Assembly (NCBI RefSeq): GCF_029773605.1
Contig: NZ_CP103807.1
Span: 1-64,000, forward strand
Origin: Actinobacillus genomosp. 2
GTDB lineage: Bacteria > Pseudomonadota > Gammaproteobacteria > Enterobacterales > Pasteurellaceae
Reading direction: 5' to 3'
DNA length: 64,000 bases
Of this stretch, positions 30,304 through 35,130 are shown in pieces. Each line of letters starts with the position of its first letter. Positions within the stretch are counted from its first letter, which is position 1. Position numbers and translations under genes: made by a program. Under the pieces are notes generated by a model. That model was given only the letters and a program-made list of their open reading frames with translations. It was not told where the DNA came from and searched no databases.

Positions 30304-31791
30304 ATGAATATCGAAAATAGTTGTATTGTTATTTTTGGTGCATCAGGCGATTTAACTTTTCGTAAGTTAATTCCGGCACTCTATAACTTATTTAAAATTG
30401 GACGATTAGGGGAACATTTTTCAGTATTGGGCGTGGCACGTTCAGAACTGACGGATGATTCTTTCCGAATCAAAATGCGTGACGCTTTAATTAAATTTGA
30501 GAAAGCGGAAGGACAATCTTTAGAAGATTTTTGTACTCACCTTTATTATCAAACAGTTAACACTTCTGATGCGTTAGATTATGCAAAATTACTGCCTCGC
30601 TTAGATGAGTTACATGATAAATACGGTAGTTGTGGTAATACGCTTTATTACCTTTCTACTCCGCCAAGTTTATACGGTGTAATCCCGGAATGTTTAGCTG
30701 CCCACGGCTTGACTACGGAAGAGTATGGCTGGAAGCGAATCATTGTGGAAAAACCGTTCGGTTATGACATTAAAACCGCTAAAGAATTAGATGAAAAAAT
30801 TCATCATTACTTTGAAGAGCATCAAATCTACCGTATCGACCACTATTTAGGTAAAGAAACGGTTCAAAATTTATTGGTATTACGTTTTTCAAACGGTTTA
30901 TTCGAGCCTTTATGGAACCGTAACTTTATTGATTACGTGGAAATTACAGGTGCGGAAGCGATCGGTGTTGAAGATCGTGGTGGTTATTACGACGGTTCGG
31001 GCGCAATGCGTGATATGTTCCAAAATCACTTATTACAAGTGTTAGCGATGGTCGCAATGGAACCACCGGCAATTATTAATGCGGATTCAATGCGTGATGA
31101 AGTGGCGAAAGTGTTACATTGTTTACATCCGTTAAGTGCAGAAGATGTGAAAAATAATGTGGTGCTAGGTCAGTATGTAAAAGGTGAAGTGGATGATCAA
31201 ATCGTTGCCGGTTACTTAGAAGAAAAAGGCGTTCCTGCGGATTCAAATACGGAAACCTATATCGCAATTAAATGTGAAATTGATAACTGGCGTTGGGCAG
31301 GCGTACCGTTTTATGTACGTAGCGGTAAACGTTTACCGACTCGAGTTACCGAAGTTGTGATTCATTTTAAAACTACACCACATCCGGTCTTTAGTCAAAA
31401 TGCACCGGAAAATAAATTAATTATTCGTGTGCAGCCGGATGAAGGTATTTCGATGCGTTTTGGTTTGAAAAAACCAGGTGCCGGTTTTGAGGCAAAAGAA
31501 GTTTCAATGGATTTCCGTTATTCGGATTTAAGTTCAGCATCAAGTCTATTAACCGCTTATGAACGTTTATTATTAGATGCGTTAAAAGGTGATGCGACTT
31601 TATTTGCCCGTACGGATGCAGTACACGCTTGCTGGAAATTTGTGCAACCGATTTTAGATTATAAAGCAGAAAGAGGCAGAGTATATGAATACGAAGCCGG
31701 CACTTGGGGACCGACCGAAGCAGATAAACTTATTGCAAAACACGGTAAAGTCTGGCGTAAACCGTCAGGTATGATGAAGAAAAAAGTATAA
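30304..31791 (+). CDS. zwf: Glucose-6-phosphate 1-dehydrogenase
   Basis: Zwf makes 6-phosphogluconolactone and NADPH, the entry to the oxidative pentose-phosphate pathway. The 495-residue product shows the coenzyme motif [20 protein letters not shown], the EKPFGYD segment and the active-site [13 protein letters not shown] near residue 175. Length matches the family. It heads a cluster with pgl and gnd, though a 172-base spacer full of hairpins separates it from pgl. Confidence 0.98.
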
Positions 31792-31796
31792 AAAAT

Positions 31797-31956
31797 GATA
31801 CTCTCGTCCGTTTGTGAGCGAGAGATAGATAAAATTGCGTAAGGCAATTTTTATCAGGGAGAGGGGAAAAAATAGTAACATAGCCCTCTCCCTCCGAAAA
31901 TCCTACGGATTTTCTCCTCCCTCTCCCCGTAAACGGGCGAGGGGAAAAAACAATGG
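31797..31956. repeat. Row of five short hairpins between zwf and pgl
   Basis: Five inverted repeats follow one another: 31801-31806/31819-31824 (CTCTCG), 31831-31838/31844-31851 (AAAATTGC), 31856-31865/31884-31893 (AGGGAGAGGG), 31896-31903/31907-31914 (GAAAATCC), and 31919-31929/31934-31943 (CCCTC-CCCG with CGGG-GAGGG). The GGGG-AAAAAA string also occurs twice as a direct repeat (31863 and 31941). The G/C-rich blocks are unlike the neighbouring sequence. It resembles a compound REP/palindromic element; function is not visible. Confidence 0.7.
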
Positions 31957-31963
31957 AGATAAA

Positions 31964-32662
31964 ATGAATTACATCACCTTCCCATCCGCTCAGCAAGCGG
32001 TGGAAAAAATTGCACAAGAATTTGTGTTATACAGCCAATTAAACCGTCCGGTACATATTTCATTATCCGGTGGTTCAACCCCGAAATTACTATTTAAAAC
32101 ATTAGCACAAGCACCATTTAATACGGCAATCCAGTGGCAAAATCTGCATTTTTGGTGGGGCGATGATCGCATGGTGTTACCAACCGATCCTGAAAGTAAT
32201 TATGGTGAAGTGCAAAAGTTACTCTTCGATCATATTCAAATTCCTCAACAAAATATCCACCGCATTCGCGGTGAAGAGCCGGTAGAGCAAGAACTTGCAA
32301 GATTTTCACAAGAATTGACCGCTTGTGTGCCTGATTTAGCTTTTGATTGGATCATTCTCGGCATGGGGAATGACGGTCATACTGCTTCACTTTTCCCTCA
32401 TCAAACCGATTTTAATGACCCGAATGTTGCAGTGATAGCCAAACATCCTGAAAGCGGTCAAATTCGTATTTCAAAAACTGCTAAATTGCTTGAGCAAGCG
32501 AAACGTATTACTTACTTAGTCACAGGTGCAGCAAAAGCGGAAGTTTTGAAAGAAATTAATGAAACTGAGGCGGAAAAACTACCGTATCCAGCAGCTCGTA
32601 TTAAGGCAAAAAACGGTGTAACCGAATGGTATTTAGACCAAGAGGCAGCAAAATGCTTATAA
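31964..32662 (+). CDS. pgl: 6-phosphogluconolactonase
   Basis: Pgl hydrolyses 6-phosphogluconolactone to 6-phosphogluconate. The 232-residue product is the DevB/SOL type, with HISLSGGSTPKLLF, WWGDDRMVLPTDPESNYG and WIILGMGNDGHTASLFP. The ATG at 31964 is chosen: it has an upstream ATGGAGAT ribosome site and starts the conserved part, whereas the longer frame from 31835 would translate the hairpin repeats. A uptake signal (32317-32326, minus orientation) lies inside it. Confidence 0.95.
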   Translation: MNYITFPSAQQAVEKIAQEFVLYSQLNRPVHISLSGGSTPKLLFKTLAQAPFNTAIQWQNLHFWWGDDRMVLPTDPESNYGEVQKLLFDHIQIPQQNIHRIRGEEPVEQELARFSQELTACVPDLAFDWIILGMGNDGHTASLFPHQTDFNDPNVAVIAKHPESGQIRISKTAKLLEQAKRITYLVTGAAKAEVLKEINETEAEKLPYPAARIKAKNGVTEWYLDQEAAKCL

Positions 32663-32794: not shown

Positions 32795-34117
32795 ATGACG
32801 ATTCAAACATTACAAAATACAAATAATTTAAGGTTTGTGATTGATCACGGACGTATGGGCGTGTATCAATGGGCAATTGTGATTATGGCTGCCGTGATGA
32901 ACTTTTTAGACGGCTTTGATGTATTAGCGATTGCTTTTACCGCAACTAATATTTCTAAAGAGTTCGGTTTATCTAAAACCGAATTTGGTGTGTTAGTCAG
33001 CGCCGGTTTAGCTGGTATGACGATTGGTTCGCTTTTCCTTGCACCACTTGCCGATAAATTTGGTCGCCGTCCGTTATTGTTACTTTCCGTGGCATTATCG
33101 GCGATTGGTTTATTAATTTCAGGTTTAGCAAGCACGCCATTTTTACTCGGTTTTTCACGTGTCATTACCGGTTTAGGTGTTGGTGGTATTTTAGTCGGCA
33201 CCAATGTGATTACCAGCGAATATTCATCCAAAAAATGGCGTAGTTTTGCGATTAGCGTTTATGCAGCAGGTTTTGGTATCGGTGCAATGATCGGCGGTAT
33301 GCTAGCAAAAGAATTACAAGCAGCTTATAGCTGGCACGCAGTATATTTTGCTGGTGCAGCGATGACGTCTTTAGTATGGCTTGTATTATTTATCTGGTTA
33401 CCAGAGTCGATCGATTTTTTAACCACTAAGCAACCGATAAATGCGAAAGCACGTTTAAATAAAATTGCGACAAAAATTGGGTTTAACGGTGAATGGGATT
33501 TACCGGTAAAAGTAGAAGCGGTAAAAACCAAACTGCCGATTTCACAATTGTTTAATGATAAATATCGCCGTTCGACCTTACTTTTATGGCTTTCATTCTT
33601 TGCCATTATGTTTAGTTTCTACTTTATTAGCTCGTGGACGCCTGCATTGCTCAAAGAAGCGGGAATGACGGTGGAAGACAGTATCAACGTGGGAATAGCA
33701 ATTTCGATCGGCGGTGCTGGTGGCTCATTAATCTACGGTTTAATTGCTAGCCGTTGGCAGGCAAGAGCGGTATTAATGTTATTTACCGTGTTATCAGCGA
33801 TTGCGATTGTGGTATTTATCCTTTCATCTTCAGCACTTGGTGTGGCGATGGCAATGGGCGTGGTAGTTGGTGCGTTGGTAAATGGTTGTATCAGCGGTTT
33901 ATACACCATCAATCCGGCAACTTACGATGCGGATATCCGTAATACCGGTGTGGGTTGGGCGATTGGAGCAGGGCGTGCAGGCTCAATTCTTGCACCGACA
34001 GTTGCGGGAATGTTGCTCGATGGCGGCTTGGCAAAACAAGATTTATACATCGCTGTAGCAGCTGTAATGTTATTATCTACCCTTGCGTTAGCTTTCAAGC
34101 GTGAAAGTAAAATTTGA
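32795..34117 (+). CDS. Major facilitator transporter, aromatic-acid:proton symporter type
   Basis: The 440-residue protein has about twelve membrane segments. It carries the DGFD motif in the first segment (NFLDGFDVLAIAF), typical of the AAHS group (PcaK/BenK), and the MFS loop motif ADKFGRRPLLLLS between segments 2 and 3. It also has GRAGSILAPTVAG near the end. Placement between pgl and gnd suggests a sugar acid such as gluconate or a related acid, but the sequence class points to aromatic acids, so the substrate is open. Ribosome site AAGGAAG. Confidence 0.85.
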   Translation: MTIQTLQNTNNLRFVIDHGRMGVYQWAIVIMAAVMNFLDGFDVLAIAFTATNISKEFGLSKTEFGVLVSAGLAGMTIGSLFLAPLADKFGRRPLLLLSVALSAIGLLISGLASTPFLLGFSRVITGLGVGGILVGTNVITSEYSSKKWRSFAISVYAAGFGIGAMIGGMLAKELQAAYSWHAVYFAGAAMTSLVWLVLFIWLPESIDFLTTKQPINAKARLNKIATKIGFNGEWDLPVKVEAVKTKLPISQLFNDKYRRSTLLLWLSFFAIMFSFYFISSWTPALLKEAGMTVEDSINVGIAISIGGAGGSLIYGLIASRWQARAVLMLFTVLSAIAIVVFILSSSALGVAMAMGVVVGALVNGCISGLYTINPATYDADIRNTGVGWAIGAGRAGSILAPTVAGMLLDGGLAKQDLYIAVAAVMLLSTLALAFKRESKI

Positions 34118-34257: not shown

Positions 34258-34921
34258 ATAAAAAATAATCTAACAACATCTTATCTTAATGAAATTAAAC
34301 AGATTCTACATTTCGCTCGTCAACAGGCCTGTGCGGCGGTAAATTCCGCTATGGTGGAAGCCTACTGGAAAATCGGTGAGAGAATTGTATTGGAAGAACA
34401 GAATGGCTCAGATAGAGCGGAGTATGGTAAAGAAATTATTAAAACGCTTTCGGCTGAGCTAACTGCTGAATTTGGAAAGGGTTTTAGCAAGCGTACGTTA
34501 TGGGAAATTCGTCAATTTTATTTGCTTTTTCCTGATTACCCAAAACTGCGAACGGCGTTCGCACAATTAAGCTGGTCGCATTTTCAGCGTTGTTTAAAAG
34601 TATCAAATGATAAAGCACGCCTTTATTATTTAACCGAAGCGGCAGAAAATCATTGGTCGGTGCGAACTTTAGAACGCAATATTTCTACACTCTATTATGA
34701 GCGTTTGCTTGCAAGCCAAGACAAAGAACTTGTGCAAGCAGAAATGCAAGAAAAAACACAAAAGTTACAAGCGAGTGATTTTATTAAATCGCCGACCGTA
34801 TTAGAATTTCTGAATCTGCCGACTTACTTAGCTTAATATGGCATACTTACCGAGCGAAGAAGAGTTGGTTCGAGAAATAGAACAACAGAAAATCATTTTT
34901 GAACTGCAATTTGAAAAATAG
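34258..34921 (+). pseudogene. yhcG: Remnant of a DUF1016/YhcG-type PDDEXK nuclease gene
   Basis: The main open frame (34351-34836, 161 residues from ATG) is the N-terminal DUF1016 domain (MVEAYWKIGERI, GKGFSKRTLWEIRQFYLLFP, LSWSHFQRCL). The same frame continues upstream without stops and with family-like sequence (EIKQILHFARQQACAAVNSA) back to an ATA at 34258, placed just after AAAGGGGGG. The original start codon thus seems to have been lost. It stops after VLEFLNLP, where intact members enter the nuclease domain. In another frame, 34838-34921 encodes MAYLPSEEELVREIEQQK plus 9 residues, the usual C-terminal tail. The nuclease middle is therefore deleted. Confidence 0.75.
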
Positions 34922-35130
34922 CAGGATTATAACCTATCACTTATATATTAGGTTACATATAGTGTTGATACGCTATGGCAAATACAAATGAAAGATTAAT
35001 TTGGTTGCAAGGCAACCACACAAATTTATCACCCCATATGTTAGTGTGGGGAACAGTAAGCGGTTGAATTTACAAAAAATCTTGCAAATTCAATCGCTTG
35101 CAACGAATTAAAAACCAACAGGAGAAAACA
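34922..35130 (+). promoter_or_regulatory. Leader region of gnd with several hairpins
   Basis: The region holds four short inverted repeats: TAACCT/AGGTTA near 34930-34955, GGTTGC-AAG-GCAACC near 35002-35017, CCCCA/TGGGG near 35032-35051, and a weakened USS pair (35058-35071 with 35086-35099). The last lies only 31 bases before the gnd start, so it could attenuate gnd. AGGAG precedes the ATG. Confidence 0.45.

Follow-up and report, generated by a model that had tools for sequence, protein, structure and literature searches.

The 172-nt spacer between zwf and pgl in the window (the whole stretch of 64,000 nucleotides that was analysed) is occupied by one copy of a dispersed, non-coding palindromic family of the Pasteurellaceae, made of two units joined tail to tail. 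This identification, taken jointly with the exchange of such copies between species, is a reading that we consider quite probable. The most likely account of the locus is that a mobile-type palindrome would act as an mRNA hairpin between the two genes, and an effect of the hairpins on zwf and pgl mRNA, judged alone, is plausible while falling a little short of probable.

Architecture of the zwf-pgl element

The preliminary description had placed five consecutive hairpins between zwf and pgl. The five stems are present, they fold beyond chance, and the flanking genes are confirmed by Pfam (Table 1), the Glucosamine_iso-family protein 3' of zwf being read as pgl. In plus-strand order the stems are H1, H2, a tail-to-tail stem (31857-31865/31884-31892), H2' and H1' (31919-31943). 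Rather than five separate structures, the hairpins make up two inverted copies of one two-hairpin unit, as recognised by R1, a covariance model built from 29 distinct units of relatives. R1 aligns to 31801-31865 on the plus strand (62 bits) and to 31884-31943 on the minus strand (38 bits), and its sole further match in the window up to E 1 (E 0.68) overlaps the right unit. Each unit runs from H1 through a four-base link to H2 and then a GGGAGAGGG tail, which pairs with the tail of the other unit; the composite is 144 bp long and possesses terminal inverted repeats, a MITE criterion.

The minimum free energy of the region 31780-31970 is -67.7 kcal/mol, whereas shuffled sequences average -40.4 (z -6.9) and none of 200 shuffles is as good, and the complement of the spacer region folds with a z of -4.8. 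The minimum free energy fold adds an outer stem that closes the whole element and replaces formation of both terminal hairpins. The 64-kb window contains three copies of the string CCCTCTCCC (0.06 expected), every one inside the element, and the two strings of (C/A) type noted earlier in the spacer were found, as (A/C)GAGGGGAAAAAA, at 31860-31872 and 31938-31950. GTAG appears in the element only in the loop of H2', on the minus strand. Comparison of 31500-32300 with Rfam returned five matches at E 5 or below, all of them short of the gathering threshold, and a known Rfam element was rejected on that ground.

Further along the window, a 161-aa ORF (34351-34836) lies between a transporter-like ORF (32795-34117) and a gnd-like ORF at 35098; we take it to be perhaps a truncated DUF1016-type gene.

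Table 1. Features of the zwf-pgl region, in window coordinates
Feature	Coordinates	Strand	Basis
zwf (glucose-6-phosphate dehydrogenase; upstream gene)	30304..31791	+	ORF; Pfam G6PD_N, G6PD_C
Composite palindromic element, two inverted two-hairpin units, REPIN/BIME-like	31801..31944	.	R1 match to both units; fold z -6.9; homologues at many loci
Left unit, terminal hairpin H1	31801..31824	+	R1 model alignment
Left unit, inner hairpin H2, stem kept by compensatory changes in the family	31829..31854	+	R1 alignment; covariation
Left unit tail CAGGGAGAGGG, pairs with right-unit tail	31855..31865	+	R1 alignment; inverted repeat
Middle linker, 18 nt, without uptake signal	31866..31883	.	Sequence
Right unit tail (CCCTCTCCCTCC as read on the plus strand)	31884..31895	-	R1; inverted repeat
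Right unit inner hairpin H2'	31896..31914	-	Inverted repeat I7; R1
Right unit terminal hairpin H1' (plus one G)	31919..31944	-	Sequence; R1
GGAG, likely pgl Shine-Dalgarno, just outside the element	31955..31958	+	Sequence; inference
pgl (6-phosphogluconolactonase; downstream gene)	31964..32662	+	ORF; Pfam Glucosamine_iso

Copies in other genomes and at orthologous spacers

A BLAST search of the spacer against 41 genomes recovered partial and some full copies, falling into two blocks that are the two units. Within the window's own genome (G000, a 1.88-Mb contig, 82% complete), the 191-base query gave no second match at E <= 0.001 and one weak second place at E 0.17. BLAST had been proposed as the check for a multicopy element, and for this purpose the own-genome search alone is misleading, since further own-genome copies emerge with the covariance model. 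With up to 150 candidates scored per genome, R1 matches at E <= 0.1 number at least nine in G000 and at least 7-37 in each of the eight other genomes of our genus set (nine Actinobacillus genomes, G000-G008). A strict A-unit pattern, not matched by the window copy because it carries ATAG instead of ACAG, is found in 33 of 140 family genomes with a maximum of 84 copies (G076), against seven matches in total, in five genus genomes, for the reversed-letter control. Four of the 23 strict-pattern matches in G008, and four of its listed R1 matches, are doubtful on account of a duplication in contig C2. That this contig might be a plasmid with copies was rejected; the contig is instead chromosomal DNA duplicated in inverted orientation, most likely as an artefact of assembly, and the duplicated region (L330) carries genes that we take to be pepP- and uvrB-like.

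The dispersed homologues rule out a single-copy local structure. A single copy, with identical sequence at this site in all relatives, had been named in advance as the outcome that would speak against mobility, and it is not what the genomes hold. The suggestion of a mobile palindromic element is instead well supported: the element is multicopy and dispersed, its orientation flips at one spacer, and it alternates with other palindromes. We recognised no paper on this palindrome family in the literature searched, most subscription journals lying outside its scope.

The 29 units of the model are a subset of 112 collected A units, defined by a 47-nt core, a 24-nt H1 with a [CT][CT]CTC start, and distinct sequence. 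Across them, pairing is found in 92% of the cells that make up the two named stems, compared with 34-57% when the partner is slid, and changes on both sides occur in 12 of 21 pairs. The collecting pattern fixes ACAG, the tail letters and part of H1, so that invariance there is largely by construction, and leaves H2 unconstrained; because H1 and the tails are partly fixed in this way, the weight of the covariation rests on H2, whose 11 pairs include 10 of the 12 with both-side changes. The inner stem is thus shown to be free in sequence, with its pairing held by compensatory change. Units are also separable: at one orthologous site G003, G006 and G008 share the flanks and the left unit, and G008 departs from the others in the right-unit inner stem and in most of the middle, which indicates that single units can be exchanged.

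In G076 some composites lie inside longer repeats with GTTGCACAAAT-like ends (L272-L275), possibly a larger parent element, and one contig holds a tandem of units.

Among the nine Actinobacillus genomes three alternatives are found in the zwf-pgl spacer, namely the window family in G000, G003 and G005, a CCCCTCTTT/AAAGAGGGG palindrome in G001, G002, G004, G006 and G008, and a small GGGCGAAAGCCC hairpin in G007. The window spacer is 98-99% identical to those of G003 and G005, while zwf, compared with theirs in 150-nt blocks, reaches 81-95%; the zwf closest to that of the window is that of G002 (90-100%), yet the G002 spacer is a different palindrome. A spacer identity exceeding that of zwf, together with a nearest zwf that is followed by another palindrome, suggests that the spacer was exchanged, although its high identity could in principle reflect purifying selection. 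The limits of a transferred tract are blurred because the first pgl block is equally close (95-97%) to G001, G002, G003 and G005.

Two more spacers, each picked on account of a copy in one genome, behave in the same manner. In the first, between genes that we take from their proteins to be nudB and yebC, G000, G001, G006 and G008 carry the window family; G002-G005 have the CCCCTCTTT palindrome, which in G004 and G005 is a single hairpin, and G007 has a degenerate form of it. The window family occupies the second, beside what we presume from its sequence to be a NapG-like gene, in G001, G003 and G008; G000, G002 and G006 have the CCCCTCTTT palindrome there, G004 a decayed form of it, and G005 and G007 other palindromes. 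At all three spacers sister species hold other palindromes rather than an empty site. No clean empty site was found at zwf-pgl, where the allele flanks do not align, and the copies inspected by eye showed no target-site duplication.

The second palindromic family (CCCCTCTTT...AAAGAGGGG, often with AGGGGGAGATTTG arms) likewise forms inverted pairs and replaces the first at all three spacers; it was noted at loci L088, L126, L264, L267-L270, L308-L311 and L319-L322. The two families share a short CCCCTC/GAGGGG string, which leaves room for a remote kinship. A separate palindrome, GTGTGTGGAA...TTCACACAC, was seen with an Apl-type uptake signal in its centre (L324, contig C2 of G005, about 633123-633231).

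Outside Actinobacillus, two strains of A. actinomycetemcomitans (L027, L040) carry the window family at zwf-pgl in the opposite orientation, and a third (L036) has something else there. In other genera the spacer holds other palindromes, for example of GTAGGGACACAC, GTAGGGTGGGC, GTAGGGGCGTA and CCTAGGGT types; palindromes of CCTAGG type were seen in Aggregatibacter kilianii (L032) and H. haemolyticus (L038).

Uptake signals, movement and a probable zwf-pgl message

Many copies carry a DNA-uptake signal between their tails. We scored the USS core (AAGCGGT or AGTGCGGT, 7 or 8 bases, either strand) in 42 tail-to-tail composites whose loci had been selected without regard to uptake signals, some of these composites being orthologous sister-species copies and to that extent not independent. 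The core is present in 20 of the 31 composites with a middle of at least 24 nt and in none of the 11 with a shorter middle, against 1.9% (157/8400) of same-length windows in the flanks; several of the remaining 11 long-middle composites resemble decayed signals. In searches of the 140 genomes, a tail with CAAGCGGT (Apl type) in the 24 nt after it was found at 81 sites in 19 genomes, and one with AGTGCGGT (Hin type) at 8 sites in 5 genomes, the reversed-letter control giving none in either case. Whole-genome core counts in 31 genomes assign 18 of the 19 genomes with Apl sites to the Apl dialect (G013 weakly) and all five with Hin sites to the Hin dialect, and the host dialect is matched at 88 of the 89 tail-adjacent sites, the exception being one site in G144. 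None of the 81 Apl-type sites falls in the Actinobacillus genus set, whose signal-bearing copies carry AAAGCGGT or TAAGCGGT instead of CAAGCGGT, and the window copy has no uptake signal in its 18-nt middle. At L281, two loci have an identical middle and different outer flanks, as would be expected if a composite were copied whole.

A broader proposal, which we put forward as possible though doubtful, is that Pasteurellaceae operon spacers hold interchangeable hairpin cassettes in which the hairpin and not its sequence would be selected, host-dialect signals in the centre of many composites spreading them from locus to locus and from species to species by natural transformation, so that the element would travel as an uptake tag with no dedicated transposase. 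An uptake signal would offer a spreading route to a repeat that has no known transposase, which bears on how uptake sequences multiply. If the proposal were true, some uptake signals would multiply by copying with the element, contrary to the view, set out in passages of PMC1626085, that substitution gives rise to them, rather than the insertion of a replicating element.

For the window copy we envisage the following course. The element would first have been inserted by an activity acting on its hairpins, and insertion or recombination would have placed it after zwf; the differences between species are observed, and the route is our reading of them. The zwf-pgl copy would then have been exchanged between Actinobacillus species, most likely through recombination of transferred DNA. 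No promoter-like site was found for pgl (0.9 expected), and the element is presumably transcribed within a zwf-pgl message, where its hairpins might shield the zwf part from 3' exonucleases and lower or uncouple pgl expression. The basis for this last step is the effects on mRNA reported for REPs in parts of PMC3686654. The pgl cistron could still be translated, because the GGAG lies outside the hairpins.

The reading that competes most closely with an mRNA effect is that the element is a neutral passenger, palindromes gathering wherever they are tolerated and zwf-pgl being merely permissive, with no consequence for expression; we regard this as a genuine possibility, if not a probable one. 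The distribution of copies fits it. The 73 clusters examined, from loci chosen for holding a copy and after removal of identical flanks, comprise 52 in co-directional, 9 in convergent and 1 in divergent spacers and 11 inside crude ORF calls; 62 are therefore intergenic, most of them between co-directional genes. For comparison, spacers of 40 nt or more that lack the element, counted in 21 longer stretches, divide into 133 co-directional, 35 convergent and 35 divergent. Copies are hence rare in divergent, promoter-bearing spacers (1/62 versus 35/203, Fisher p 6e-4), as for tolerated insertions, the bias being weaker among the element-bearing spacers of those same 21 stretches (12 co-directional, 4 convergent, 2 divergent). 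The substitution of one palindrome for another at three spacers also fits a passenger, as does the brevity of some zwf-pgl spacers: of 80 named loci, seven were left out (four with no zwf read upstream, three with a spacer above 1000 nt), and among the 73 read, 16 spacers have 15 nt or fewer. A further 53 of the 73 measure at least 40 nt, and 40 of those contain an exact inverted repeat, 7 nt or longer; the palindrome types were taken from individual spacers, automatic grouping having chained different spacers into a group of 17.

Against a passenger stands the folding of the spacers before pgl. A fold z below -3 was obtained for 34 of 48 spacers before pgl (40-300 nt) and for 43 of 213 other co-directional spacers at the same loci, in a comparison that uses mononucleotide shuffles and crude ORF calls and whose counts ignore relatedness between species, which weakens the point. 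This excess is compatible with, and no proof of, a processing island setting the zwf:pgl ratio. Compensatory change in the inner stem likewise argues against a passenger, although its benefit may fall to the DNA element instead of the host. Different palindromes at shared operon spacers amount to a natural experiment on whether the intergenic hairpin itself is selected.

Mobilisation by the genome's own Y1 transposases, as for a standard REP doublet, would account for the inverted-doublet form, and such transposases (PF01797) are present in 108 of the 140 family genomes; G000 gave two matches. In G009 one RAYT on contig C6 lies about 4 kb from copies of the family; it is outside the 20 RAYT loci that we examined, which were chosen from the PF01797 matches. 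None of these 20 holds an exact tail or ACAG motif or an R1 match up to E 1, many have other palindromes, and mobilisation by the RAYTs of these loci was rejected, as none carries the family. The unit foot, moreover, bears no unpaired GTAG or CGTC, either in the 29-unit consensus, gathered by a pattern that fixes the inner ends of the units, or in the two units of the window. We therefore judge a RAYT-driven origin to be quite unlikely. Many Pasteurellaceae RAYT genes were observed to be flanked by palindromes of CCTAG type (L202-L221).

A regulatory RNA that evolved in place as a processing or attenuation island for the zwf:pgl ratio, its resemblance to repeats elsewhere being coincidental, would explain the very stable fold and the hairpins at zwf-pgl in many genera; this reading is already disfavoured by the homologues of the element at unrelated loci and by the differences in sequence at zwf-pgl among sister species, and we hold it to be very unlikely. 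An intrinsic terminator between the genes, to which the GC-rich hairpins might point, was rejected when the scan of 31600-32100 on either strand returned no terminator-like site (0.6 expected), and with no promoter-like site for pgl it is extremely improbable.

Comparison with known palindromic repeats

MITE-like bacterial elements are non-coding and dispersed and have inverted-repeat ends. The window family is likewise non-coding, inverted-repeat-ended and dispersed, but no target duplication was seen in it and no parent transposase was found.

The Hin-1 stem-loops of H. influenzae and Pam-1 of P. multocida (described in parts of PMC2267715) and the USS-pair terminators (in parts of PMC1852404) are, as here, repeated stem-loops involving uptake signals. 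In those passages the hairpin is built from inverted uptake signals, whereas in the window family the signal is a passenger between stem-forming units.

The CGTC- and GTAG-tagged REP super-families, as characterised in passages of PMC3733652, are palindromic and mostly dimeric like the window family, and the CGTC repeats are described there as having no transposase association. In contrast, the window family has no terminal CGTC or GTAG tag and a longer, two-hairpin unit. The main text of PMC3733652 makes no mention of Actinobacillus, Aggregatibacter, Haemophilus, Pasteurella or Mannheimia.

The closest likeness is to the REPINs of Pseudomonas and Stenotrophomonas and the BIMEs of E. coli, which, according to sections of PMC3686654, are short palindromic units in inverted pairs, dispersed extragenically, as are those of the window family. 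The exchange of single units at one orthologous site is a further resemblance. The window family differs in that its unit has two hairpins and no GTAG tag at the foot, in that 0/20 RAYT loci carry it, and in that its inner stem is free in sequence and conserved in pairing. It works like a REPIN or BIME, yet departs from them in two defining respects, the tag and, at the 20 loci examined, the RAYT, and for this reason we place it as a variant of palindromic repeat. An odd spacer thereby becomes a defined repeat family with testable rules, and the host-matched uptake signal in many of its copies joins the literature on palindromic repeats to that on DNA-uptake sequences.
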